A DNA stretch of 60,203 nucleotides from an uncultured Clostridia bacterium. Its GTDB lineage: Bacteria; Bacillota; Clostridia; Christensenellales; UBA1242. Each line of letters starts with the position of its first letter. Position 1 is the first letter of the stretch. Where the stretch lies: the NCBI GenBank assembly GCA_944348085.1, contig CALVMU010000005.1:1-60203 (forward strand), in the 5' to 3' direction. Below are positions 463-13,840 of this stretch, piece after piece. The position numbers and the translations under genes were made by a program. The notes below the pieces were generated by a model that was not told the origin of the DNA, did not search any database, and saw nothing but the letters and a program-made list of their open reading frames with translations.

Positions 463-915
463 ATGGCAAGAAGTGCTAGACAGTCAAAAATTTTGGAACT
501 TATTTCCACAAAAGAGATTGAAACTCAAGATGAGCTTGCGCGAGAACTTAAAAATGCAGGTTTTGACATTACGCAAGCCACCATTTCAAGAGATATCAAA
601 GAGCTTGGCTTGACCAAGATTTTGTCTTCGACTGGCAAATATAAGTATTGTTTTGTCGGTTCTGAAGAGCAAGTTATCTCAAACAAATACATAACAATTT
701 TCAAAGAAGCTGTCATCTCTGTCAAATCTGCAATGAATATCGCTGTTGTAAAAACTATGAAAGGCATGGCTAGTGGCGTTTGTGGTTTTGTTGACAAGCT
801 TAATCTTAACGAACTTATGGGTGCTTGCTATGGCGACGACACTGTAATGCTTATTTTTCCAACAACCATACTGGCTGGCGAGGCTGTGATGACTTTGAGT
901 GGAATGTTAAATTAA
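463..915 (+). CDS. argR: Arginine repressor ArgR/AhrC
   Basis: Arginine-responsive DNA-binding regulator of arginine biosynthesis and catabolism, acting as a hexamer. The 150-residue length is normal for the family. An N-terminal winged helix includes the recognition-helix motif ATISRDIKELGL (about residues 39-50). The C-terminal oligomerisation/arginine-binding domain has the GDDT motif (about residues 124-127). The ATG has a good AGGAGA site 5-10 bases upstream. It lies 11 bp before recN, the usual argR-recN pairing of Firmicutes, so the two are probably cotranscribed from the promoter at 339. Confidence 0.95.
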   Translation: MARSARQSKILELISTKEIETQDELARELKNAGFDITQATISRDIKELGLTKILSSTGKYKYCFVGSEEQVISNKYITIFKEAVISVKSAMNIAVVKTMKGMASGVCGFVDKLNLNELMGACYGDDTVMLIFPTTILAGEAVMTLSGMLN

Positions 916-926
916 ACGAGGACAAA

Positions 927-2588
927 ATGCTACAAACTTTAAAGATAGAAAATTTTGCGTTGATCGAAAATCAAACTGTTGAATTTAAAAATGGCTTAAA
1001 CATTTTGCTTGGCGAAACAGGCTCTGGAAAAAGCTTGATATTCAACAGCATTCTTTTTGCTCTTGGAATGAAGGCTGACAAAACTTACATCCGCTCTGGC
1101 AAAAAGTTTATGAAAGTTGATGCGCTTTTCGTTGAGCTGCCTAGCGAGCTTCGTCAGTTTTTGGAGGATGCGGGCTTTGATTGCGAAGATGAGCTTTTGC
1201 TTTCAAGAAGCCTCAGCGAAGATGGAAAAAATGTTATCAGAGTCAATGGACAAATTGCGACCACATCAATGCTTAAAGAGATTGGACAAAGGCTTGTTGA
1301 CAGTTTTACTCAACATGAAAGCGTTTCGCTTCTCAATGTTAAAAACCATTTGACCATGCTTGATAAATTTGCTGGAGAAGGGGTTAAGCCACTTAAAGAA
1401 GAAATTTCTTCTTTGCTTGAGCAAATTGCAGAGATAAACAAAAAGATAAAATCGCTTGGTGGCGATGAAAGCGAAAGAGAAAGGCTTATCTCTCTTTTGA
1501 AATATCAGTATGAGGAAATAGAAAAAGCAGGGCTTCGTCAAGGTGAAGATGAAGAAGTCAAGGAAAGGCTGAAAGTTATGGCAAGCGCAGAAAAGATTTT
1601 TGAGGCAGTAAGTGCTTCTGAGGCGCTTTTGTCTGAAAACCCTGACAGTGCGATAAATGCGCTTCAAGAGGTTTCAAATGCTCTGTCAGCGCTGTCTAAC
1701 ATTGAAGTTTTGTCAGCCTTGAAAGAAAGACTTGACAGTTGCCGCTATGAGCTTGAAGATATTGTCTCTGCGCTTGTCGATGTGAGAGATGAAACCACTT
1801 TTGATGAAGGTGAATTTAACGCTTTAGATCAGCGCAATGACCTTATAAAAAGCCTATGCAAAAAATATGGTGGCTCAATTGAGGCCGTTCTTGAATTTGC
1901 CTCTAAAGCTAAAGAACAGCTCCAGTTGCTTGATGAAGGGCAAGAGCTTTTGGAAAAGCTGAACGCGCAAAAAGAAAAACTTGTTGCTCAACTTGAAAAA
2001 GTTGCTGACAAATTGACTGAGGCTCGAAAAGTTGTGGCAGAAGAGGTTGAGGGCAAGGTTGAAAAAGAGCTTCGAGAGCTTGGGATGAAATCGTCAAAAT
2101 TTACCATTCAAATTTCACCGCTTAAAGAAATTGGCCAAAATGGAAGAGATGATGTTGTGTTTAATTTCTCGGCCAATGCCGGTCAGGAAGTTAAATCGCT
2201 TTCAAAAACTGCGTCAGGCGGAGAGCTTAGTCGATTTATGCTGGCAGTGAAAAACATCTTTGCGGAAAATGGTTTGGCTTCAACGCTTCTGTTTGACGAA
2301 ATTGATGCTGGCATAAGTGGTGAGACTGGCAAGATTGTTGGTCAGAAATTGAAGAATATAACCAAATTTTGTCAAGTGCTTTGCATCACTCATTTGCCAC
2401 AAGTTGCTGTGTTTGGAGACAATTTTGTAAATGTTTATAAGCTTGAAAAAGATGGACAAACCTTCTCTGAAACAAAGATTTTGGATTTGGATGAGGCGGT
2501 CGAGGCGGTTGCTAAAATGACAGGTGGTGCAAACCCAACTGAGATTGCACTGAATCATGCAAGAGAGATGTTTAAGGATGCAAGATAA
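927..2588 (+). CDS. recN: DNA repair protein RecN
   Basis: SMC-like ATPase that acts early in double-strand-break repair. The 553-residue protein starts at ATG 927 (site ACGAGGA upstream), giving the typical N-terminus MLQTLKIENFALIE; the longer frame from 825 lies in argR and is not used. Visible features are Walker A GETGSGKS (about residues 31-38), a long helical middle region rich in Glu/Lys/Leu (coiled coil), the ABC signature ASGGELSR, and Walker B LLFDEIDAGISG near residue 455. The stop is immediately followed by structured element 1 (2589-2749). Confidence 0.96.
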   Translation: MLQTLKIENFALIENQTVEFKNGLNILLGETGSGKSLIFNSILFALGMKADKTYIRSGKKFMKVDALFVELPSELRQFLEDAGFDCEDELLLSRSLSEDGKNVIRVNGQIATTSMLKEIGQRLVDSFTQHESVSLLNVKNHLTMLDKFAGEGVKPLKEEISSLLEQIAEINKKIKSLGGDESERERLISLLKYQYEEIEKAGLRQGEDEEVKERLKVMASAEKIFEAVSASEALLSENPDSAINALQEVSNALSALSNIEVLSALKERLDSCRYELEDIVSALVDVRDETTFDEGEFNALDQRNDLIKSLCKKYGGSIEAVLEFASKAKEQLQLLDEGQELLEKLNAQKEKLVAQLEKVADKLTEARKVVAEEVEGKVEKELRELGMKSSKFTIQISPLKEIGQNGRDDVVFNFSANAGQEVKSLSKTASGGELSRFMLAVKNIFAENGLASTLLFDEIDAGISGETGKIVGQKLKNITKFCQVLCITHLPQVAVFGDNFVNVYKLEKDGQTFSETKILDLDEAVEAVAKMTGGANPTEIALNHAREMFKDAR

Positions 2589-2749
2589 GGCGCGCTTTTT
2601 GCTTGGCGCCTTTTTTGTTTGCAAAAAAAGCGCCAGGCGGTGCGCCCTCGGGCTCAAAAACCGTGTTGGTGGGTTGATGCTTTTCTTTTGGGCCCGAGGG
2701 CGAAAACTTTTCTCGCGAGTTTTTCGCGAAAAAAGTTTTAAAGCGCGCC
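2589..2749. ncRNA. Structured intergenic element 1 (four-helix cloverleaf)
   Basis: A GC-rich island begins at the base after the recN stop codon. The closing stem pairs 2589-2598 with 2740-2749 (10 bp, perfect). Inside it are three helices in order: 2601-2616 with 2623-2638 (one C-A mismatch, one T-G pair); 2643-2653 with 2692-2702 (11 bp perfect, 38-nt loop); and 2703-2711 plus 2713-2718 with 2724-2729 plus 2731-2739 (one C-A mismatch). On the minus strand the C-A mismatches become G-U, which hints at minus-strand RNA, but the edge T-G pair argues the other way. Elements at 9093 and 12121 have the same architecture with different sequence. It could be a ncRNA, a complex terminator or a small mobile element. 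Confidence 0.6.
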
Positions 2750-2792
2750 GTAAAACCAAATCAACTTTTTTAAATTTAACCTCTTGAATAAT

Positions 2793-2821
2793 TTGACTTA
2801 AAAAAAATAATATAGTAAAAT
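2793..2821 (+). promoter_or_regulatory. ruvC promoter, predicted leaderless start
   Basis: TTGACT (2793-2798), 17-bp spacer, TAAAAT (2816-2821). Only 6 bases separate the -10 box from the ruvC ATG at 2828, so transcription should begin at the start codon. No Shine-Dalgarno sequence precedes the ATG. Confidence 0.6.
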
Positions 2822-2827
2822 TTAATC

Positions 2828-3316
2828 ATGATAGTTTTAGGAATTGACCCAGGTTATGCAATTATTGGTTATGGCGTTTTAGACACAAGCAAATCAAATA
2901 TGCTGGTTGACTATGGTGCGATTATAACGCCAAAAGAAGACTCAATGCCAGTTAGGCTTGAAAACATCGACAAAAGCTTGAAATATTTGTTTGAAAAGTT
3001 CAAGCCAGATGTGGTTGCAATTGAAGAGCTTTTCTATTTCAAAAACCAAAAGACAGTCATTCAAGTTGCTCAGGCAAGAGGAGTGATTTTGCTTGCTTGT
3101 CAAAAATATTGCGGAAACATTTATGAATACACACCGCTTCAAATAAAGCAAGCACTCACTGGTCAAGGCCGAGCAGAAAAGGCGCAGGTGCAATTTATGG
3201 TTAAGGCGATTTTGGGGCTTGATAAAATTCCAAAGCCAGACGACGCGGCTGACGCGCTTGCAGTTGCCATTTGTCACAGCCAGTCAAGCCCAATGCTTAA
3301 CACAAACAGAGTTTAG
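2828..3316 (+). CDS. ruvC: Holliday junction resolvase RuvC
   Basis: Metal-dependent endonuclease that cleaves Holliday junctions, partner of RuvAB. The 162-residue protein has the usual start MIVLGIDPGYA with the first catalytic Asp in GIDPG, Glu residues in AIEELFY (about 66-67), and the C-terminal acidic pair in KPDDAADALAVA. It is the first gene of ruvC-ruvA-ruvB, 8 bp before ruvA. The start codon is fixed by the family N-terminus, yet no ribosome-binding site is visible and the predicted -10 box is 6 bp away, suggesting a leaderless message. RuvC in a sporulating Firmicute points to Clostridia rather than Bacilli. Confidence 0.96.
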   Translation: MIVLGIDPGYAIIGYGVLDTSKSNMLVDYGAIITPKEDSMPVRLENIDKSLKYLFEKFKPDVVAIEELFYFKNQKTVIQVAQARGVILLACQKYCGNIYEYTPLQIKQALTGQGRAEKAQVQFMVKAILGLDKIPKPDDAADALAVAICHSQSSPMLNTNRV

Positions 3317-3324
3317 GAGAAAGT

Positions 3325-3915
3325 ATGATATCTTTTTTAGTTGGCGTTATTGAAGAGAAAAATGAAAACGAGCTTGTGCTCGATGTAAACGGCGTAGGCT
3401 ATAGCCTTCAAGTTTCTTCGACCACTTTATCGTCACTTCCACTTGCTGGCGAAACGGTCAAGGTTTATACATATATGGCGGTGCGCGAAGATGGTGTGTC
3501 GCTGTTTGGCTTTTCAACAAAAGAGGAGAGAGGGGTTTTTTATAAACTTATTTCAGTCAGCGGTGTTGGGCCTAAAATGGCAATCACAATTCTTTCAGGG
3601 TTAAACTTGTCCGACCTTATTCTTGCAATAATTCAAGAGGACAGCAAGCTTCTTTCCAGAATTAAAGGACTTGGCAAAAAGACAGCAGAGCGCATTTGTC
3701 TTGAACTTAAAGATAAACTAGATGAGGCAAGCTCAAGTCAAAATCAGACTTTTGCTACTGACTATAACGAAGACGCTGTTCAAATGGCAACAGACACATT
3801 GATAAGCCTTGGAATCAATAAAAATGAAGCTTATATGCTTGCTCGCGCTAATGCTCAAAATGATGCAACGGCAGAGGAGATTATTTCAAAAGCGTTAAGG
3901 GGGTATAAAGGTTGA
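3325..3915 (+). CDS. ruvA: Holliday junction branch migration subunit RuvA
   Basis: Junction-binding subunit of the RuvAB branch migration motor. Of normal length (196 residues): N-terminal OB fold (about 1-64), tandem helix-hairpin-helix region with SGVGPKMA and [19 protein letters not shown] (about 73-130), then a flexible acidic linker and a C-terminal RuvB-contacting three-helix domain (about 148-196). TAGGAGA precedes the ATG. The stop codon overlaps the TTG start of ruvB. Confidence 0.96.
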
Positions 3916-4919
3916 ACGAAGAAGAGAGATTTGTGCAAAGCACAAAAAATTTGACAGATGCAGAAATTGAAAATTCGCTAAGACCAACTTCGCTTGATGA
4001 ATATATCGGTCAAACAAAAGTTAAAGAGGCGCTTAGTGTTTATATTCAGGCGGCAAAGTCAAGAAAAGAAAGTCTTGACCATGTGCTTTTGTATGGTCCT
4101 CCAGGACTTGGAAAGACCACGCTTTCGCACATCATTGCAAACGAGCTTGGCTCTCAATTTAAGGTGACATCGGGTCCTGCAATTGAGCATGCAGCTGACC
4201 TTGCTGCAATACTTACAAACTTAAATCAAAACGATGTTCTGTTTATTGACGAAATCCACAGGCTTAACAAAACAGTTGAAGAAATTTTGTATCCAGCCAT
4301 GGAAGATTTTGCGCTTGACTTTATTGTTGGAAAAGGTCCATCTGCAAGAAACATGCGACTTAAAATAAAACCTTTCACGCTTATTGGTGCAACAACGAGA
4401 GCGGGAATGCTTACAAATCCACTTCGAGACCGATTTGGTGTTATTTGCAGACTTGAACTTTACAGCGCTGATGAACTTAAAATCATTATCAAGCGTTCGG
4501 CTGGAATTTTGGGCATCAATATCGATGATGATGCGGCTGGTGAAATTGCAAAGCGTTCACGCGGAACGCCAAGAATTGCAAACAGGCTGTTAAAGCGCGT
4601 TCGTGACTATGCGCAAGTGCTTGGTGAAGGGCATGTAAACAAAGCAATTGCTGTAAAAACGCTTCAAGTGATGGAGATTGATGACTTGGGGCTTGACACA
4701 ATTGACCGAAAGATTTTGCTTACCATGATAAACAAGTTTGGTGGAGGCCCAGTTGGTCTTGACACGCTTGCTGCAACAATAAGCGAAGATGCCACAACTA
4801 TTGAAGATGTTTATGAGCCATATCTTTTGCAACTTGGTTTTATTTCAAGAACGCCAAGAGGCAGAATTGTGCTTGAAGGTGCTTATAAGCATTTTGGCAT
4901 GGAATATGTTGCTAAATAA
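3912..4919 (+). CDS. ruvB: Holliday junction branch migration ATPase RuvB
   Basis: AAA+ hexameric helicase that drives branch migration. It begins at a TTG whose last bases form the ruvA stop (TTGA), and an AAGGGGG site lies about 9 bases upstream, so translation is probably coupled to ruvA. The 335-residue protein shows the RuvB N-terminus ([12 protein letters not shown]), Walker [10 protein letters not shown], Walker [10 protein letters not shown], sensor GATTRAGML, arginine finger region and the C-terminal winged helix ending [10 protein letters not shown]. Confidence 0.97.
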
Positions 4920-4952
4920 ATTTAATTTATAAGTTTTGATAAAGAGAGAGTT

Positions 4953-5999
4953 ATGTCTAACAAAGATAAAAAAGATTTGCTGAAAAAATCAAGTTATTTC
5001 TATAACTTGCCAGAGGAGCTTATAGCTCAAAAGCCAATAGAGCCAAGAGATAATTCTAGGCTACTTCTTTTTTGTCGTCAAACTGAAGAAATTCAAGATA
5101 AACATTTTTATGATATACTCGACTTTTTGCATAAAGGCGATGTGCTTGTAGTCAACAACACCAGAGTTTTGCCTGCAAGGCTTTTTGGCTATAAAGACAC
5201 TGGTGCAAAAATTGAAATTTTGCTTCAAAAACGAATTGACCTTACCACTTGGGAGGTTATTGCAAGACCTTTTAAGCGACTGAAAGAGGGAACTGAAATC
5301 CATTTTAGCGAAAATTTAAGCTTGACGGTTTTAGAGAAAAAAGAATATGGTGAGTGCAAGGTTAAATTCAATTTTACCGGCGCGTTTGAAGAGCGTTTAG
5401 ATGAAGTTGGGCAGGTTCCGCTTCCTCCATATATTCATGAAAAACTCAAAGATAAAGAGCGCTATCAAACAGTTTATTCAAAAGTTGAAGGCTCATCTGC
5501 CGCTCCAACTGCAGGACTTCATTTCACAAACGAGCTTCTGCAGAAATTGCAAGAGAAGGGAGTGGAGCTTATCGAAGTGCTATTGCATGTTGGACTTGGA
5601 ACTTTTAGGCCAGTTAAAGAAGACGACATCTTAAATCACAATATGCACAGCGAATATATTGAAATGACACAGGAGAATGCCGACAAAATCAACAAGGCAA
5701 AAGCTGAAGGCAGGCGAATAATTGCAGTTGGAACAACAAGTGTCAGAGTGCTTGAAAGTGTGGCGACAGAAGAGGGCAGAGTAAAAGCGTATAAAGGTGA
5801 GACAAGCATTTTTATCTATCCTTCTTACAAATTTAAGATCGTTGATGGGCTTATAACAAACTTTCATTTACCAGAAAGCACTTTGATTATGCTGGTTTCC
5901 GCATTTGCAGGTTATGACCAAACGATGAAAATATACAATCATGCAGTGAAAGAGCGCTATAGATTTTTCTCTTTCGGAGATGCGATGTTTATATACTGA
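4953..5999 (+). CDS. queA: S-adenosylmethionine:tRNA ribosyltransferase-isomerase QueA
   Basis: Converts preQ1 in tRNA (position 34 of GUN anticodons) to epoxyqueuosine using S-adenosylmethionine. The 348-residue length is normal. Motifs include LIAQKPIEPRDNSRLL, DVLVVNNTRVLPARLFG, SSAAPTAGLHFT and the C-terminal TNFHLPESTLIMLVSAF. A GAGAG site precedes the ATG. It lies 33 bp after ruvB and before tgt; the ruv-queA-tgt order is common in Firmicutes. Confidence 0.96.
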   Translation: MSNKDKKDLLKKSSYFYNLPEELIAQKPIEPRDNSRLLLFCRQTEEIQDKHFYDILDFLHKGDVLVVNNTRVLPARLFGYKDTGAKIEILLQKRIDLTTWEVIARPFKRLKEGTEIHFSENLSLTVLEKKEYGECKVKFNFTGAFEERLDEVGQVPLPPYIHEKLKDKERYQTVYSKVEGSSAAPTAGLHFTNELLQKLQEKGVELIEVLLHVGLGTFRPVKEDDILNHNMHSEYIEMTQENADKINKAKAEGRRIIAVGTTSVRVLESVATEEGRVKAYKGETSIFIYPSYKFKIVDGLITNFHLPESTLIMLVSAFAGYDQTMKIYNHAVKERYRFFSFGDAMFIY

Positions 6000-6025
6000 T
6001 TTTGCATACTAGCACAATATATTGC

Positions 6026-6056
6026 ATTTATGCGTGCAGAATACCTACAAGATATA
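6026..6056 (+). repeat. Copy A of the dispersed ~33-bp motif
   Basis: Lies between queA and tgt. It matches the pattern TATTATGCRTTGCA + GAATACCTACAARATATTG, with one base fewer in the left half. A related partial unit (GCATACTAGCACAATATATT) sits 32 bp upstream at 6004, the same spacing as at copy E. Twenty bases (6036-6055) are identical to the copy inside trmH. Confidence 0.65.
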
Positions 6057-6073
6057 TATAATGGAGTGAATAA

Positions 6074-7201
<1,128 letters not shown>

Positions 7202-7228
7202 AATTTCTTGTTTTTTAGTTTTGATATC

Positions 7229-7251
7229 GTAGCATATTTGCTACCTTTTTT
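7229..7251 (+). terminator. Intrinsic terminator after tgt
   Basis: GTAGCA (7229-7234) pairs with TGCTAC (7239-7244) around a 4-nt loop, followed by C and six T. It closes the ruvCAB-queA-tgt transcription unit. Confidence 0.75.
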
Positions 7252-7292
7252 ATAATTTCAAAAACAGAATAAAATATTATTTTGAAATTTGT

Positions 7293-7321
7293 TTGACTTA
7301 GAGTTTTATATTGTTTATAAT
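7293..7321 (+). promoter_or_regulatory. rny promoter
   Basis: TTGACT (7293-7298), 17-bp spacer, TATAAT (7316-7321). It predicts a 5' leader of about 120 nt before the rny ATG. Confidence 0.7.
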
Positions 7322-7339
7322 TATATCAGGTGTTTTAAT

Positions 7340-7410
7340 AATTTAAGTTGTCGTCAACTTAATTGAAATATATTTATGGCATTACTTGGGTTGATGTCAA
7401 CCAAAAATTT
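7340..7410 (+). promoter_or_regulatory. Structured 5' leader of rny
   Basis: Two hairpins lie between the promoter and the start codon: TTAAGTTG with CAACTTAA around TCGT, and TTGGGTTGA with TCAACCAA around TG (one bulged G), the latter followed by AAAAATTTTT. They could be cleavage or attenuation sites that let RNase Y control its own message; the function is inference. Confidence 0.4.
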
Positions 7411-7449
7411 TTAAGATTAACCGAGTTTATTTTAAAGGGGAACTAAAAA

Positions 7450-9042
7450 ATGTACAACAGTGTTAGCATGCTTTGTGACGCTGTTGCTACCGCAGGTGCC
7501 GTTGCTGGTGTTTGTGCCTTTATAGTTGGCGCATTAATCGGCTTTTTTGTGTATAAGTTTGTAGTTGGCAAAAAAATAAGCAAAAACAAATCTAGTGCAT
7601 TAAAGATTATTGAAGATGCCTATGCGGAAGCAAAGAGCGTTAAAAAAGAGTCTCTTTTAGAGGCAAAAGAAGAAGCTCAAAAAATTCGAGATGAGGCAAA
7701 TAATGAGGCTAAAGAGCGAAGAGGTGAGCTTCAAAAACAAGAGGAAAGACTTGACCAAAGAGAAGAATATATCACAAAGAAAGAACAACTTCTTGACACC
7801 AAATCTGACCAACTTGAAAATGAAAAACAAAAACTTGAAAACGAAAAATTGAAACTTAACGAAAAACTTGACGAGCAAGAACAAATCAAAACTCAAATGC
7901 TTGAAAAACTTGAAAAAATTTCAGGTCTTTCAAAGAAAGAGGCCAAAGACATCTTGATTGAAAGCATAACCGATGAGGCTAAAAAAGATGCAGGCGCGCT
8001 TGTTAAGCAAATTGAAGAAGAGGCAAAAGAAAATGCTGAACGCAATGCTAAAGATATTATTGTTTCAGCAATTCAGCGCTGTGCAACTGACCTTACAAGT
8101 GAAATGACTGTCACTTCGGTGGCTCTTCCAAATGACGAAATGAAGGGAAGAATTATCGGTAGAGAGGGCAGAAATATTCGTTCTATCGAAAGCGCTACAG
8201 GAGTTGAACTTATCGTGGATGACACACCTGAGACAATAACTATTTCAAGCTTTGATCCTTTCAGAAGAGAGATTGCAAGGCTTGCACTTGAAAAGCTTAT
8301 TGTGGATGGAAGAATTCATCCTGCAAGAGTTGAAGAGGTTGTTGAAAAGGCAACTATTGAAGTTGAAAAGGCGGTTAAGGAAGCAGGTGAAAACGCTTGC
8401 AATGAAGTTCAAATTTACAACTTAAATCCAGAGCTTGTAAAAGTTTTGGGAAGACTGAAATATAGGACAAGCTATGGTCAAAACTGCTTGAGACATAGCG
8501 TTGAAACTTCTATTATTGCTGGGCTTATCGCAACTGAACTTGGAGCAAATGTCGCTGTTGCAAAACGCGGTGGTCTTCTTCATGATATCGGCAAAGCTCT
8601 CGACCATGAGATTGAAGGCACTCATGTTACAATCGGTGTTGACCTTGCCAAGAAATACAAAGAAAGCGAGGCGGTTATTCACTGCATTGAAGCGCATCAT
8701 GGCAATGTTCCATTCCACAGCATTGAAGCGATTATCGTGCAAGTGGCTGATGCCATTTCAAGCACAAGGCCAGGCGCAAGGCGTGAAAGCTTTGAAAACT
8801 ATATCAAGCGCCTTGAACAACTTGAAAGCATTTGCAACGACTTTAAAGGTGTTGAAAAATCTTATGCTATTCAAGCTGGAAGAGAAGTGCGCATAATGGT
8901 TAAACCTGAAGAGATCAGCGATAACGATGCAATGTTTATGGCTAAAGAGATTGCAAAACGCATTGAAAATGAAATGCAATATCCTGGTCAAATCAAAGTC
9001 AATGTTATTCGTGAGTCGCGTTTCTCAGACACTGCAAAATAA
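7450..9042 (+). CDS. rny: Ribonuclease Y
   Basis: Membrane-anchored endoribonuclease that starts bulk mRNA decay in Firmicutes. The 530-residue protein has an N-terminal transmembrane segment (about residues 14-38), a long charged coiled coil (about 45-200), a KH RNA-binding domain with LPNDEMKGRIIGREGRNIR (about 223-245), and an HD hydrolase domain with the metal-binding pair in LLHDIGKALDHE (about 377-388) followed by EAHHGN. AAAGGGGA precedes the ATG. It has its own promoter and a structured leader, and structured element 2 follows it. Confidence 0.97.
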   Translation: MYNSVSMLCDAVATAGAVAGVCAFIVGALIGFFVYKFVVGKKISKNKSSALKIIEDAYAEAKSVKKESLLEAKEEAQKIRDEANNEAKERRGELQKQEERLDQREEYITKKEQLLDTKSDQLENEKQKLENEKLKLNEKLDEQEQIKTQMLEKLEKISGLSKKEAKDILIESITDEAKKDAGALVKQIEEEAKENAERNAKDIIVSAIQRCATDLTSEMTVTSVALPNDEMKGRIIGREGRNIRSIESATGVELIVDDTPETITISSFDPFRREIARLALEKLIVDGRIHPARVEEVVEKATIEVEKAVKEAGENACNEVQIYNLNPELVKVLGRLKYRTSYGQNCLRHSVETSIIAGLIATELGANVAVAKRGGLLHDIGKALDHEIEGTHVTIGVDLAKKYKESEAVIHCIEAHHGNVPFHSIEAIIVQVADAISSTRPGARRESFENYIKRLEQLESICNDFKGVEKSYAIQAGREVRIMVKPEEISDNDAMFMAKEIAKRIENEMQYPGQIKVNVIRESRFSDTAK

Positions 9043-9092
9043 TTGAAATTTAAATGGGCTGTTGGGTTTTAATTGTTTATGATCATTGAGGC

Positions 9093-9224
9093 CACACGAA
9101 AGGCTTTCGCCAAATGCTTTTGGCGAAAAAAACCTCTGCTAAAAATATGAAGCGTTTATATTAAATTCAAAAACATAAGCAGAGGGCAGTGCAGTTTTCA
9201 AAAGAAAACTGCGCCTTTCGTGTG
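9093..9224. ncRNA. Structured intergenic element 2 (four-helix cloverleaf)
   Basis: Four perfect helices: closing stem 9093-9104 with 9213-9224 (12 bp); hairpin 9105-9114 with 9119-9128 (10 bp, loop TGCT); middle stem 9133-9140 with 9178-9185 (8 bp, 37-nt loop); hairpin 9191-9199 with 9204-9212 (9 bp, loop AAAA). Adjacent helices abut almost without linkers, as in a four-way junction. A run of five T follows the closing stem, so it could end rny transcription; on the other strand it lies 130 bp past the recombinase stop. The layout matches elements at 2589 and 12121, without sequence similarity that I can see. Confidence 0.65.
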
Positions 9225-9354
9225 TTTTTGTTGCATTAAAAAAGAAGACTTGCTTAAAATATCAGCAAATCTTCTCTTTAAAATGTGAAGCATATTTCCT
9301 TCACGGTTATATCATGTGCAGATAGAAAAGATTTATGCATAAATTTATAAAATT

Positions 9355-10404
9355 TTATTCGTCGTCTTTTCTCAGTTGCAAAACATTTGCAACGCTTTTT
9401 CTCATGTCTTCATTGATGGCTGCATAATGTTTTCTGGTGGTGTTGACATCTTTATGTCCAAGCACATCTGCGACAATATAAATATCTTTAGTTTCGCGAT
9501 AAAGATTTGTGCCAAATGTGCTTCTAAGCTTGTGCGGAGAGATTTTTTTGAGAGGTGAGGCAATTTGAGCAAATTTTTTAACTAAGTTTTCAACGGCTCT
9601 TACAGAAATTCGCTTGTTCTGAAGAGAAATAAACATCGCCTTTTCGTTTTGATCAAGCTCTAAGGTTGCTCTTTTTTCAAGCCATGTTTTAAGAGCGCGC
9701 GCAACTTCATCTGAAAAATATAAAACAGATTTGTTTCCACCTTTGCGTGTTGCAACAAAAGCATTTTCTTTAAAGTCAAAGTTGTCAACATCCAGTCCGA
9801 CAAGTTCTGAAATTCTTATGCCAGTTCCTAAAAATAAAGTGATTATCGCATTGTCTCTTTCAAAGGTGTTTTTGTTATAAGATTTTTGCTTTTCTGTAAA
9901 TTCAACAGGATTTTCGACCGCATTAAGCATTTTTTCAACTTCATTTTGCTCAAGCCTGATAATTTCTTTGTTATGCAACTTTGGTGTTTCGATTTTGCTC
10001 ACAACATTGGAAGAAATTTTGTCATGATTGAAAAGATATTTGAAGAAACTGCGCAAAGAGGCAAGTTTTCTGGCTTTTCCGCGTTCTTTGTTTTGGCTTA
10101 TCTTGTTGTTTTCGCCGTTATAATAGCTTAAGTAAGACAAAAACTGTTCAATATCGCGCGATTTTAGCTTGTTTAAATCATCATAGGTGATAGATTGTTT
10201 GTCTTTTTTAAATACAAACTCGGCAAGATAGTCATAAAAAACATTTAAATCCATTGCATAGTTATATCTTGTTAATGATGAGGTGTTGTTTTCAATTCCA
10301 ATAAAGAAATCTAAGCAATAGTCGGGGAGTACCTCCAAATATTTGCCCATTTTAAGTCTGTTTTTTAAATCTCTTTGTTCATAATATGATAATTTGTTTT
10401 CCAT
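9355..10404 (-). CDS. Tyrosine recombinase (XerC/D or integrase family)
   Basis: Site-specific recombinase; whether it resolves chromosome dimers or moves an element cannot be decided here. An N-terminal core-binding (SAM-like) domain (about residues 20-120) precedes the catalytic domain with Arg in LGTGIRISELVGL, the beta-hairpin Lys in ATRKGGNK, HKLRSTFGT, LGHKDVNTT and the nucleophile Tyr in RKHYAAI. At 349 residues it is longer than XerC/XerD (about 300). I start at ATG 10404, not the upstream TTG-type start, because a promoter ends exactly 6 bp before it; no ribosome-binding site is visible. It is convergent with rny and shares the gap with structured element 2. Confidence 0.85.
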   Translation of the reverse strand: MENKLSYYEQRDLKNRLKMGKYLEVLPDYCLDFFIGIENNTSSLTRYNYAMDLNVFYDYLAEFVFKKDKQSITYDDLNKLKSRDIEQFLSYLSYYNGENNKISQNKERGKARKLASLRSFFKYLFNHDKISSNVVSKIETPKLHNKEIIRLEQNEVEKMLNAVENPVEFTEKQKSYNKNTFERDNAIITLFLGTGIRISELVGLDVDNFDFKENAFVATRKGGNKSVLYFSDEVARALKTWLEKRATLELDQNEKAMFISLQNKRISVRAVENLVKKFAQIASPLKKISPHKLRSTFGTNLYRETKDIYIVADVLGHKDVNTTRKHYAAINEDMRKSVANVLQLRKDDE

Positions 10405-10410
10405 GATTGT

Positions 10411-10438
10411 ATTATAAAACATTTTTTAAAATTTTCAA
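10411..10438 (-). promoter_or_regulatory. Recombinase promoter, predicted leaderless start
   Basis: On the minus strand TTGAAA (10438-10433), 16-bp spacer, TATAAT (10416-10411). The ATG at 10404 begins after 6 bases, the expected transcription start. Confidence 0.65.
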
Positions 10439-10490
10439 AACGATTTGGCTATCTATGCGTAAAATTCTTGCAAAATCAATATAATGAGGC

Positions 10491-10520
10491 TATTATGCGC
10501 ATATTACCTACAATATATTG
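10491..10520 (+). repeat. Copy B of the dispersed ~33-bp motif
   Basis: Intergenic, between the recombinase and serS. It reads TATTATGCGC + ATATTACCTACAATATATTG and is followed by TTTTTGCATAT. The upstream bases also carry TATCTATGCGTAAAA, which recurs in the palindrome at 13545. Confidence 0.6.
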
Positions 10521-10676
10521 ATTTTTGCATATAAAAAGATTGAAAATTGAAGTAAAAATCGAATAGATAGAGTGTGAAAATTTAAAATTTGAAAGGTTGG
10601 CTTGAAAGTTTATAAACAAAAAATTTTTTAAAAACAAAATATTTTGTCGATTATTATATTAATTATTTCTTTTTAT
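10521..10676. other. AT-rich gap before serS
   Basis: Together with the copy B region this makes a gap of about 300 bp between the divergent recombinase and serS. I see only AT-rich sequence and the two promoters, no open reading frame worth reporting. Confidence 0.4.
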
Positions 10677-10705
10677 TTGACTATTTTGAAAAAAAAATGT
10701 AAGAT
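10677..10705 (+). promoter_or_regulatory. serS promoter
   Basis: TTGACT (10677-10682), 17-bp spacer, TAAGAT (10700-10705). GTGAGG at 10715-10720 is the ribosome-binding site. The leader is too short for a T-box. Confidence 0.6.
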
Positions 10706-10725
10706 ATAAAATAAGTGAGGCAAAT

Positions 10726-12015
10726 ATGATTGATATAAATTTAATTAGAACAAATCCAGAACTTGTTAAGGAAAACATTAAGAAAAAATTTCAAGATCAT
10801 AAACTTGAATATGTTGATGAAGTCATTAAACTTGACAATCAAATCAGAGCGCTGAAAAAAGAAGGCGATTCTTTGCGAGCTGAGAGAAATGCAAACAGCT
10901 CAAAAATCGGTCTTTTGATGAGAGAGAAAAAGATTGATGAGGCAAATGCTATCAAAGGTGAAGTCGTAAAAATCAATGAAAGACTTGTTCAAATCGAAAG
11001 TGAAGAAGAGGCTTTATCAGCAGAACTTAAAAAATATATGATGTCTATTCCAAACATTATTGCAGACGATGTTCCAATTGGAAAAGATGACAGCGAAAAT
11101 GTTCAAAGATTGACTGTTGGAGAGGCAAAAAAAGTTGATTTTGAAATTCCTTATCATGCTGATATTTTGGAGAGCTTAAACGGACTTGACCTTGACAGCG
11201 CAAGACGAACAAGCGGAAATGGTTTTTATTATTTGACTGGAGACATCGCAAGACTTCACTCAGCAATTCTTTCTTATGCGCGTGATTTTATGATTGACAA
11301 AGGTTTTACCTATTGCATTCCGCCATTTATGATCAGAAGCGATGTTGTAAACGGCGTTATGAGCTTTGAAGAAATGGAAAACATGATGTATAAAATCGAA
11401 GGCGAAGATTTATACTTGATTGGAACAAGTGAGCATTCAATGATTGGCAGATTTAAAGACACAATTTTAAAAGAAGAAAACTTGCCAATTTTGTTGACAT
11501 CTTATTCTCCATGCTTTAGAAAGGAAGTTGGCGCACACGGAATTGAAGAGCGCGGAATTTATCGCGTTCACCAATTTGAAAAACAAGAAATGATTGTGAT
11601 TTGCAAGCCAGAAGATTCTATGGATTGGTATAATAAAATGTGGCAGATCTCATCTGAGTTTTTCAAGAGCTTAGACATTCCTCATGAAGTTATGGAATGT
11701 TGCAGTGGCGACTTAGCAGATCTTAAAGTTAAATCTTGTGACTTAAATGCTTGGAGTCCAAGACAAAATCGCTATTTTGGCGAACTTGGTTCTTGCTCAA
11801 ATCTTTCAGATGCACAAGCAAGGCGTTTAGGCATTCGATTTAAGACTGCTGACGGTATGAAATTTGCTCATACATTAAATAATACAGTTGTTGCGCCACC
11901 AAGAATGCTTATTGCTTTCCTTGAAAACAACATAAATGCTGATGGAAGCGTAAACATTCCACAAGTGCTTAGAAGCTATATGGGCGGAAAAGAAAAAATC
12001 TGTCCGAAAAAATAA
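10726..12015 (+). CDS. serS: Seryl-tRNA synthetase
   Basis: Class II synthetase charging tRNA-Ser (and tRNA-Sec where present). The 429-residue length is normal. The N-terminal tRNA-binding coiled-coil arm spans about residues 25-100. The catalytic core shows motif 2 (SPCFRKEVGAHGIEERGIYRVHQF), the ELGSCSNLSDAQARRL serine-site region and motif 3 (FAHTLNNTVVAPPRMLIAFLEN). It appears monocistronic and structured element 3 follows it. Confidence 0.97.
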   Translation: MIDINLIRTNPELVKENIKKKFQDHKLEYVDEVIKLDNQIRALKKEGDSLRAERNANSSKIGLLMREKKIDEANAIKGEVVKINERLVQIESEEEALSAELKKYMMSIPNIIADDVPIGKDDSENVQRLTVGEAKKVDFEIPYHADILESLNGLDLDSARRTSGNGFYYLTGDIARLHSAILSYARDFMIDKGFTYCIPPFMIRSDVVNGVMSFEEMENMMYKIEGEDLYLIGTSEHSMIGRFKDTILKEENLPILLTSYSPCFRKEVGAHGIEERGIYRVHQFEKQEMIVICKPEDSMDWYNKMWQISSEFFKSLDIPHEVMECCSGDLADLKVKSCDLNAWSPRQNRYFGELGSCSNLSDAQARRLGIRFKTADGMKFAHTLNNTVVAPPRMLIAFLENNINADGSVNIPQVLRSYMGGKEKICPKK

Positions 12016-12066
12016 CTTTTATGGCTAATTTGCGCAATTTATAAAGCTTAATTATATATTATCGGA

Positions 12067-12107
12067 AGTCGAGCCAAGCACAACTTTAGTTGTATTTGAG
12101 CGAGACT
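12067..12107 (+). ncRNA. Hairpin with tandem G-A mismatches upstream of element 3
   Basis: AGTCGAGC (12067-12074) can pair with GCGAGACT (12100-12107) through tandem G-A mismatches flanked by GC pairs, and ACAACT (12080-12085) pairs with AGTTGT (12088-12093). Tandem G-A pairs are typical of structured RNA rather than of terminators. It may be the 5' domain of the same transcript as element 3. Confidence 0.35.
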
Positions 12108-12120
12108 GATGGTCATACAT

Positions 12121-12202
12121 ACTATGTGATGGCGTGCAAAGCAGGCAAATTCAACAGAATTTATTAAAATTTTATGCTAATAAAATTTTAACATCACATA
12201 GT
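12121..12202. ncRNA. Structured intergenic element 3 (four-helix cloverleaf)
   Basis: The closing stem pairs 12121-12131 with 12192-12202 (11 bp, perfect). Three hairpins follow: 12132-12137 with 12141-12146 (one G-G mismatch, loop AAA); 12147-12152 with 12157-12162 (loop AACA); 12164-12175 with 12180-12191 (12 bp perfect, loop GCTA). This is again one closing stem plus three internal hairpins, as at 2589 and 9093, here AT-rich and compact. It sits downstream of serS and about 110 bp before the next gene. Confidence 0.55.
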
Positions 12203-12312
12203 TTATATTATTTATAATATTATTTATAAATGAATTATATAGATAAAAACCACAAAAAAATGAAAGATGAAGCGAAAAAACACAAAAAATTTTATCTCTA
12301 AAAGGTTGATTT

Positions 12313-13296: not shown

Positions 13297-13840
13297 ATAT
13301 GAGCATTTGTTCAAATTTGAAAATAAAAATGGATTTGAAAAATAAAATTTTGAACAAACAAAACAGATTTGAAAATAAAACCAGACATAAATATATGCAT
13401 AAAGTTGCAAACGAAAACCAAAAGAAAATCAGAATAAAACAAATCAAAATAAAGGCAAATATAATAAAAATGCATTTTATAAGCGATTTTGCATAATTAT
13501 AAAAAAATAACATAATAGTCCAAATTAATGGCTATTATGTGCTTATCTATGCGTAAAAGTTGTGTTTTACGCATAGATTATGCATGTGTTGACATCAAAA
13601 ATTTTTCGCCCCTTTTCCTAAAAATCAAACAAAAATTAGCAAATTTTTCAAAAGTCTGCTCTATTTTGTTATTGCTCAAAAGTGAGTTTCAATTGATTTG
13701 TATTTATTTTATCTATCAATTCCATTTATTCCTTATAAACAAGCTCTTTAAGATATGCGTTTTTATGAATATGCAATCCCCTAGCCCCTATCAAAAAATA
13801 AAATCCCCTCTTTTTGACTGAGTAACTGTTGTAGAGTATG
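13297..13840. other. Long AT-rich gap with repeats and a palindrome
   Basis: No credible gene. The first part has three loose copies of GATTTGAAAATAAAA. A promoter-like pair TTGCAT (13489) and ATAATA with 17-bp spacing precedes a palindrome at 13547-13576. An open frame 13528-13821 exists, but its composition looks random and no ribosome-binding site is present. A short plus-strand RNA starting near 13517 is possible. Confidence 0.4.
13547..13576. repeat. Perfect palindrome TATGCGTAAAA...TTTTACGCATA
   Basis: CTATGCGTAAAA and TTTTACGCATAG form a 12-bp perfect inverted repeat around GTTGTG. The left arm with its flank (TATCTATGCGTAAAA) also occurs near 10450, and GGCTATTATGYGC occurs in front of both. 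It seems related to the dispersed motif family. Confidence 0.5.

Follow-up and report, generated by a model that had tools for sequence, protein, structure and literature searches.

We detected three cloverleaf structures in the window (the whole 60,203-nt stretch of an uncultured Clostridia bacterium that was analysed), two of which, elements 1 and 2, are members of a class that only the fold defines: exactly three hairpins enclosed by a closing stem, with letters that differ from locus to locus. Such short cloverleafs lie just 3' of ordinary genes and look like structures whose shape is retained by selection and whose sequence is rewritten. Element 3 folds in the same way but is one copy of a repeat whose sequence is conserved and which bears an additional domain on its 5' side. 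Our best explanation, to which we give a probability of about 0.48, is a lineage-specific class of four-way junctions in which elements 1 and 2 are more elaborate forms of terminator, or structures at gene 3' ends, with selection acting on their shape.

The folds lie where the initial annotation had placed them (Table 1), each with a closing stem of 10-12 bp and three hairpins, and none of 200 dinucleotide shuffles equalled any of them (z -7.05, -7.51 and -6.74 for elements 1, 2 and 3; MFE of -92.9 for element 1 with its flanks). The large middle loops that it had described were recovered at 38 nt in element 1 and 37 nt in element 2, with a few pairs placed inside them by RNAfold, as was the position behind recN, rny and serS, at 0 (the recN stop ends at 2588), 50 and 105 nt after the stop codon. 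Its claim of unrelated sequence holds when the three are compared with one another, but sequences closely similar to element 3 occur elsewhere. Element 2 is single-copy in its own genome, G000 (similarity search, E <= 0.001), and the similarity matches of element 1 in six genomes were itself and one G069 ortholog only. Within the window, Rfam gave no matches at or above the gathering threshold, a permissive search returned sub-threshold matches only, and ARAGORN found no tRNA or tmRNA.

Table 1. Cloverleaf elements and neighbouring genes, in window coordinates
Feature	Position	Strand	Basis
recN (context; true start probably inside the ORF)	825..2588	+	TIGR00634
Element 1, cloverleaf immediately 3' of recN stop codon	2589..2749	+	Fold; cloverleafs there in five relatives
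Element 1 closing stem, 10 bp	5' arm 2589..2598, 3' arm 2740-2749	+	Fold
Element 1 hairpin 1, 18 bp	2599..2640	+	Fold
Element 1 hairpin 2, 17 bp (loop 2654-2691)	2643..2702	+	Fold
Element 1 hairpin 3, 15 bp	2703..2739	+	Fold
rny, ribonuclease Y (context)	7450..9042	+	TIGR03319
Element 2, cloverleaf 3' of rny; T5 after closing stem	9093..9224	+	Fold; orthologs
Element 2 closing stem, 12 bp	5' arm 9093..9104, 3' arm 9213-9224	+	Almost invariant in five species
Element 2 hairpin 1, 10 bp	9105..9128	+	Fold
Element 2 hairpin 2, 8 bp (loop 9141-9177)	9133..9185	+	Fold
Element 2 hairpin 3, 9 bp	9191..9212	+	Fold
XerS-like tyrosine recombinase, syntenic neighbour, outside the system	9355..10422	-	NF003462, 181 bits (cut-off 267)
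serS (context)	10726..12015	+	TIGR00414
Element 3, 5' domain conserved across the repeat family (a stem enclosing an inner hairpin)	12057..12120	+	Family copies
Element 3, cloverleaf of repeat family	12121..12202	+	Fold; family copies
Element 3 closing stem, 11 bp	12121-12131 / 12192-12202	+	Fold; family copies
Element 3 hairpins, 5, 6 and 12 bp	12132-12146, 12147-12162, 12164-12191	+	Fold

A fold scan of 1.896 Mb from five related species (gut Clostridia), with cut-offs chosen after the first elements were known, yielded 25 compact three-hairpin forms: 20 members of the class at 13 loci, four copies of the element 3 family and one doubtful case. Five further forms had two hairpins and none had more, against 0, 2 and 0 forms with three, two and more hairpins in one shuffle; the three-hairpin forms exceed chance. 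The G000 part of the sample (460 kb) held seven three-hairpin forms, and a single shuffle of these stretches gave none. Element 2 itself, with a paired fraction of about 0.65, escapes the final scan filter on account of its 37-nt loop.

Orthologs retain the fold far above the null expectation. Five ortholog pairs at 61-74% identity keep it, as did 2, 4, 2, 7 and 4 of 500 trials each under independent random substitutions down to the ortholog identity; three pairs at 81-87% identity also keep it, against 36, 36 and 101 of 500. A cloverleaf follows recN in six of ten close species (G000, G069, G060, G094, G017 and G067) and rny in five of nine (G000, G069, G094, G017 and G067), with single terminator-like hairpins after recN (by eye) and other hairpins without a cloverleaf in the rny 3' gap of G056, G059, G061 and G088. 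The G060 recN element, the longest at 186 nt, carries one compensated change (G-C to A-T) in its closing stem. Plain terminators and cloverleafs also turn over at one and the same locus: by eye, the plain terminator present in G017 and G094 is similar to hairpin 1 of the G067 cloverleaf at L229, and that of G017 to hairpin 2 of the G069 cloverleaf at L249. In ten comparisons on plain alignments, 39 pairs had changed on both sides, 31 had changed on one side and still formed a standard pair, and 58 were broken, an excess of broken pairs that is partly due to misalignment and that counts against our best explanation. The proposed selection on structure is supported for elements 1 and 2 by fold retention and by the favoured three hairpins, but the covariation counts are mixed; orthologous gaps keep the fold in some relatives, but elsewhere contain other hairpins rather than a clean absence.

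Such stems might also be palindromes made and repaired by replication template switching and seeded at terminator hairpins, the cloverleaf itself being functionless, an account that we consider improbable. According to PMC8794818, this mechanism can make perfect stems in one event and mend them, and it would keep the fold better than the independent-substitution null. It also agrees with the rarity of G-U pairs (40 among the 1123 pairs of 25 class elements) and with the type 1 recN element, which has the appearance of an inverted extension of its terminator. However, the mechanism leaves exactly three hairpins without a reason (25 forms against 5 and 0), and what separates the close locus H copies of G017 and G067 is one-sided changes of the ordinary kind. 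E. coli sequence (50 kb) and loci from other families (102 kb) yielded no three-hairpin cloverleafs, a small control that also speaks against template switching.

The 13 class loci, assigned to gene orientation by hand, comprised eight co-directional, five convergent and no divergent gaps, against 74 convergent and 120 divergent among 606 background gaps of at least 70 nt (P = 0.015 for at least five convergent loci; P = 0.057 for no divergent locus); a location of the class at gene 3' ends is moderately supported. A hairpin followed by a T-run of at least five on a gene-sense strand occurs, as a raw count, at 12 of the 13 loci; at the exception, locus H, the T-run is absent and 22 nt separate the end of the cloverleaf from the start codon that follows. 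Strong terminators lie within the cloverleaf in recN type 1, A, L229 and L258, and at rny and C it is the closing stem rather than one hairpin that the T-run abuts. The 5' arm of hairpin 1 in element 1 is followed by T6 and can pair alternatively with the closing 5' arm in an intrinsic-terminator-like form (-10.7 kcal/mol). The class thus resembles Rho-independent terminators in sitting after stop codons with a hairpin and T-run, and in the single terminator-like hairpins that sister species bear at the same site, but differs in being a four-way junction with exactly three hairpins. Among the candidates originally named, a junction-type terminator fits best.

If these elements are elaborated terminators, the cloverleaf would stand at gene 3' ends, replacing or wrapped round an ordinary intrinsic terminator, and would probably end transcription, often from both sides. 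The compact junction may protect or shape transcript 3' ends, and selection would presumably keep the fold rather than the letters. Element 3 shares the fold but belongs to a family of dispersed repeats that has a conserved 5' domain of its own. Several observations fit this explanation poorly. Inner strong terminators would stop most transcripts before the closing 3' arm, and selection on the whole RNA fold is therefore hard to square with the members that contain them. G-U pairs are few and their strand bias is weak, at 29 gene-sense against 16 in co-directional copies (21 against 7 supplied by recN, 8 against 9 by the others) and 8 against 5 in rny copies, and locus H lacks a T-run, its cloverleaf ending close to the next start codon.

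The two DNA strands of class elements fold about equally well (dG), and the junction could instead act as DNA, a folded single strand or cruciform read by an enzyme through its shape, as attC sites are. The elements would then be cassettes, or descendants of cassettes, that can be exchanged or can move and that come to rest at terminators, with element 3 as a currently multiplying relative, a scenario that we find somewhat unlikely. The favoured three arms, a junction with few unpaired bases and the dispersed and tandem copies of element 3 with the same fold all agree with it, as does locus H, where G017 and G094 share 96% and 94% identity in the genes on either side but have different cloverleaf gaps. 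Against it, loci L258, L229 and D show no clean insertion or target duplication, their gaps differing throughout, and closing stems have no common motif (both by eye). The hairpin that resembles a plain terminator varies (1 in L229, 2 in L249), unlike a single insertion type, and the element 3 model fails to retrieve the class. Integron attC sites have a conserved fold and variable letters, in the form of a single imperfect hairpin that bears R and L boxes. Elements 1 and 2 likewise keep their fold and vary their letters, but they are four-way junctions for which no integrase or cassette array was seen. The suggested use of element 2 as a cruciform by the adjacent tyrosine recombinase fails because each of the eight close relatives searched has the recombinase gene 3' of rny, including four that lack the element. 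Its product best resembles XerS, yet scores under the XerS model cut-off, and reaches 71 bits against a cut-off of 265 with the integron integrase model. We also regard as unlikely a class whose identity is shape alone, in which a host- or element-coded factor would recognise the junction by its fold, as DNA or RNA, and the unit would be kept or swapped at gene 3' ends with its sequence free, element 3 being a sequence-conserved, multiplying cousin.

The family of element 3 is a dispersed repeat of ~150 bp, sometimes in tandem, with six places in G000 and presence in at least 44 of 112 genomes of the genus. Both-sided changes occur in 28 of its 56 pairs (0 of 500 shuffles as high) and the number of pair types is not significant (60 of 500 shuffles), counts that used one member's structure and so favour that structure. 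RNAalifold on 38 copies did not recover hairpin 3. G-T mismatches outnumber A-C mismatches in the inner hairpin of the 5' domain (42 to 0), in hairpin 2 (16 to 0) and in the outer stem (64 to 5, mostly at one invariant pair), and the remaining helices show no lean. One core pattern of element 3 had no exact matches in viral_contigs. Bacteria are known to carry families of stem-loop repeats and small repeats that are mobile (PMC2267715, PMC2229807). Element 3 resembles them as a dispersed intergenic repeat with conserved secondary structure, having both several similar copies and a conserved fold. Elements 1 and 2 differ in being single-copy, and their loci share no sequence, so sequence clustering would not group them.

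Descent of all elements from one family of the element 3 type, with the 5' domain lost, the sequence diverged and the fold kept, is very improbable. Its covariance model does find a degenerate L237 in G067 (81.1 bits, with changes in both arms of its closing stem), a degenerate L291 after rny (E 0.0005) and, weakly, L255 (E 0.41). The other class members were not retrieved, however (91 sources, default filters, 5 of 20 G069 stretches included), and their single hairpins are resembled by plain terminators. A derivation of elements 1 and 2 from this family is not supported, since the model misses both (default filters), and neither is the single class of three originally proposed, from which element 3 stands apart by its conserved sequence and 5' domain.

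Among the titles and abstract openings surveyed, no such fold-only class was described, which does not prove its absence from the literature. Searches for bacterial noncoding elements commonly group by sequence first and consider covariation next. Such sequence-first searches would miss a class whose fold alone is kept, whose letters differ at each locus and which turns over between species. If the three-hairpin rule reflects selection, some cell factor reads four-way junctions at gene ends. If true, this would be a new layer of 3'-end formation, or a DNA site recognised by its shape.

The window, one entire contig of 60,203 bases, comes from a 1.06-Mb genome (G000) that is 98% complete, and the database entries for its genus relatives read uncultured Clostridia or, for some, Christensenella sp., with several gut-derived judging by their names. 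The initial annotation had described three intergenic cloverleafs, each a closing stem enclosing exactly three hairpins, after recN, rny and serS, gene identities that NCBIfam equivalogs confirm in a profile search. This architecture was borne out by RNAfold, with z-scores against dinucleotide shuffles of -7.05, -7.51 and -6.74 for elements 1, 2 and 3, respectively, and 0 of 200 shuffles folding as well for each. Across the window, Rfam matched no family at gathering thresholds, a permissive Rfam search gave sub-threshold matches only, and ARAGORN detected neither tRNA nor tmRNA.

Features of contig CALVMU010000005.1 (plus-strand coordinates)
Feature	Positions	Sequence	Remark
Element 1	2589-2749		cloverleaf after recN
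Element 2	9093-9224		cloverleaf after rny
Second hairpin	9240-9280	GAAGACTTGC...GCAAATCTTC	just 3' of element 2
Recombinase gene	9355-10422		closest model XerS, 181 bits (cut-off 267)
Element-3 family unit	12050-12206		dispersed repeat
Element 3	12121-12202		cloverleaf after serS
Inverted repeat	13545-13578	ATCTATGCGTAAAA	14-6-14, perfect arms; dif-like shape

The three elements are not, as had been proposed, of one kind: together with the 80 bp before it, element 3 forms a dispersed repeat, matched in at least 44 of 112 genus genomes and at least 22 times in the densest genome (both at E <= 0.001, and both lower bounds, with at most seven candidates scored per genome). In G000, sequence search gave at least seven matches and a covariance model of the cloverleaf six distinct places; the serS gap of three relatives (G017, G067, G094) is without the repeat, and viral_contigs held no exact match to one core pattern of element 3. 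Copies also lie head to tail with TTATATTA as the joint. The arrays of this family (stretches L183, L188 and L198) have units of about 140-150 bp; two hairpin variants exist, both within some arrays, and several copies are located at contig ends. Among 38 aligned copies, both-sided changes affected 28 of 56 pairs and 170 cells, against shuffled means of 16.6 and 50.8; none of 500 shuffles, which take no account of the relatedness of copies, reached these values. Hairpin 1 varied in this way at all six of its pairs and hairpin 2 at five of its six; slid controls had 8 to 12 such pairs, and the count of further pair types was not significant (60/500 shuffles).

Elements 1 and 2 have no further copy in G000 at E <= 0.001 and belong to a class of sequence-unrelated cloverleafs that we recovered by fold. 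The scanner required a minimum of 8 bp in the closing stem and 4 bp in each hairpin, few bases at the junction, a paired fraction of 70% or more and z <= -5, and was applied to five related genomes (G000, 460 kb; G017, 375 kb; G094, 380 kb; G067, 398 kb; G069, 283 kb). It returned 25 three-hairpin, five two-hairpin and no higher forms, versus zero, two and zero when every stretch was shuffled once. Four of the 25 are element-3 copies (window 12121, L237 and two in L250), one is weak and lies within an open reading frame (L131 3343), and the remaining 20 represent 13 class loci, three of which (B, E, L216) overlap predicted ORFs in their 5' extensions. For the later comparisons, five elements that the filter missed or that lay beyond the scanned stretches were included manually: element 2, the recN elements of G069, G060 and G094, and the rny element of G069. 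Nine other same-genus genomes (397 kb) gave one four-hairpin match and a single three-hairpin match, the latter an element-3 family member. From 80 rny loci plus four additional stretches (625 kb) came three two-hairpin and six three-hairpin matches, the six being the rny elements of G069, G094, G067 and G017, one at the rny stop codon (L297) and one upstream of rny (L312). After rny in L291, the covariance model identified a degenerate element-3 copy. Neither 50 kb of E. coli K-12 nor 102 kb of other-family loci gave a match. Two other structured repeats, each with two adjoining copies and apparently separate families, were seen at L098 5246-5413 in G000 (GCCGAGTGGAGC type) and L234 9544-9778 in G067 (GGTTATAT type).

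Read by eye, a cloverleaf follows rny in G000, G069, G094, G017 and G067, with altered hairpins and a nearly unchanged closing stem and T-run behind; G056 and G061 have single terminator-like hairpins, in G088 and G059 only the hairpin that also precedes the opposite gene is seen, and 19 further same-genus rny gaps (200 nt each) contained none. After recN, cloverleafs of two sequence types occur in G000, G069, G060, G094, G017 and G067, and single hairpins in G059, G061, G088 and G056 (also by eye). The expectation that stems would covary in orthologous gaps stood only in part: ten comparisons in plain alignments gave 274 pairs unchanged, 39 changed on both sides and 31 with a one-sided change that kept a standard pair, against 58 broken and 21 gapped. 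The best were G094 vs G067 at recN (25 same, 12 both-sided, 2 one-sided, 2 broken) and at rny (24, 7, 3, 2), and the worst were G000 vs G069 at recN (44, 1, 8, 12) and G000 vs G094 at locus C (4, 5, 3, 17), where the alignment is out of step with the helices. Fold survival is a sharper test. Every member of eight ortholog pairs folds as a three-hairpin cloverleaf; when one member was randomly substituted to the observed identity, five pairs at 61-74% identity kept the cloverleaf in 2, 4, 2, 7 and 4 of 500 trials, and three pairs at 81-87% in 36, 36 and 101 of 500. This null treats sites as independent and lacks insertions, so template switching (PMC8794818) could also have formed the cloverleafs, though it gives no account of why the hairpins number three.

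Single loci also revealed turnover. At the L258 locus, the cloverleaf of G069 runs from one stop codon to the other; in G000, whose two sides are 90% and 89% identical, a plain two-way terminator lies there. One cloverleaf hairpin resembles a sister species' plain terminator at both L229 and L249, being hairpin 1 in one and hairpin 2 in the other. At locus H, G017 and G094 have flanks 96% and 94% identical around a different gap and cloverleaf. The surrounding gene block (L129 1343-4421, L216, L234) is 90-98% identical among G017, G067 and G094, more than the 83-85% that the three share at L229, and might reflect recent exchange or unusual conservation.

The suggested tie between element 2 and the neighboring tyrosine recombinase did not survive comparison with relatives. 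In each of the eight close relatives searched (for G069, with part of the gene), the recombinase gene lies after rny; these include G056, G061, G088 and G059, yet these four have no cloverleaf there. The second hairpin beside element 2, also seen in relatives (some partly shown), is likely the terminator of this opposite-strand gene. A likelier target for the recombinase, we infer, is the dif-like repeat about 3 kb away, similar to repeats in relatives' L140, L243 and L273.

Oriented by hand, eight of the 13 class loci are co-directional and five convergent (P = 0.015), with none divergent (P = 0.057); among 606 background gaps of 70 nt or longer, 74 are convergent and 120 divergent, with genes called by ORF length alone. 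Of the genes upstream of elements, the profile search covered recN, rny and serS; the rest, from translations read by eye, we take to include recA, dnaJ, leuS and rho. At 12 of 13 loci a hairpin on a gene-sense strand is followed by a T-run of five or more, counted without a control set. An account at the RNA level only is weakened because the inner terminator of several members, if working, stops transcription before the closing arm exists, and because G-U pairs are few (40/1123 in 25 class elements; 179/2258 in a loose control of 209 G000 hairpins preceding T-runs) and their gene-sense bias is weak (29 vs 16 in co-directional copies, mostly from recN); the junction may instead act at the DNA level. 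The simplest account of the class is one of elaborated terminators or 3'-end structures whose fold would be kept by selection.
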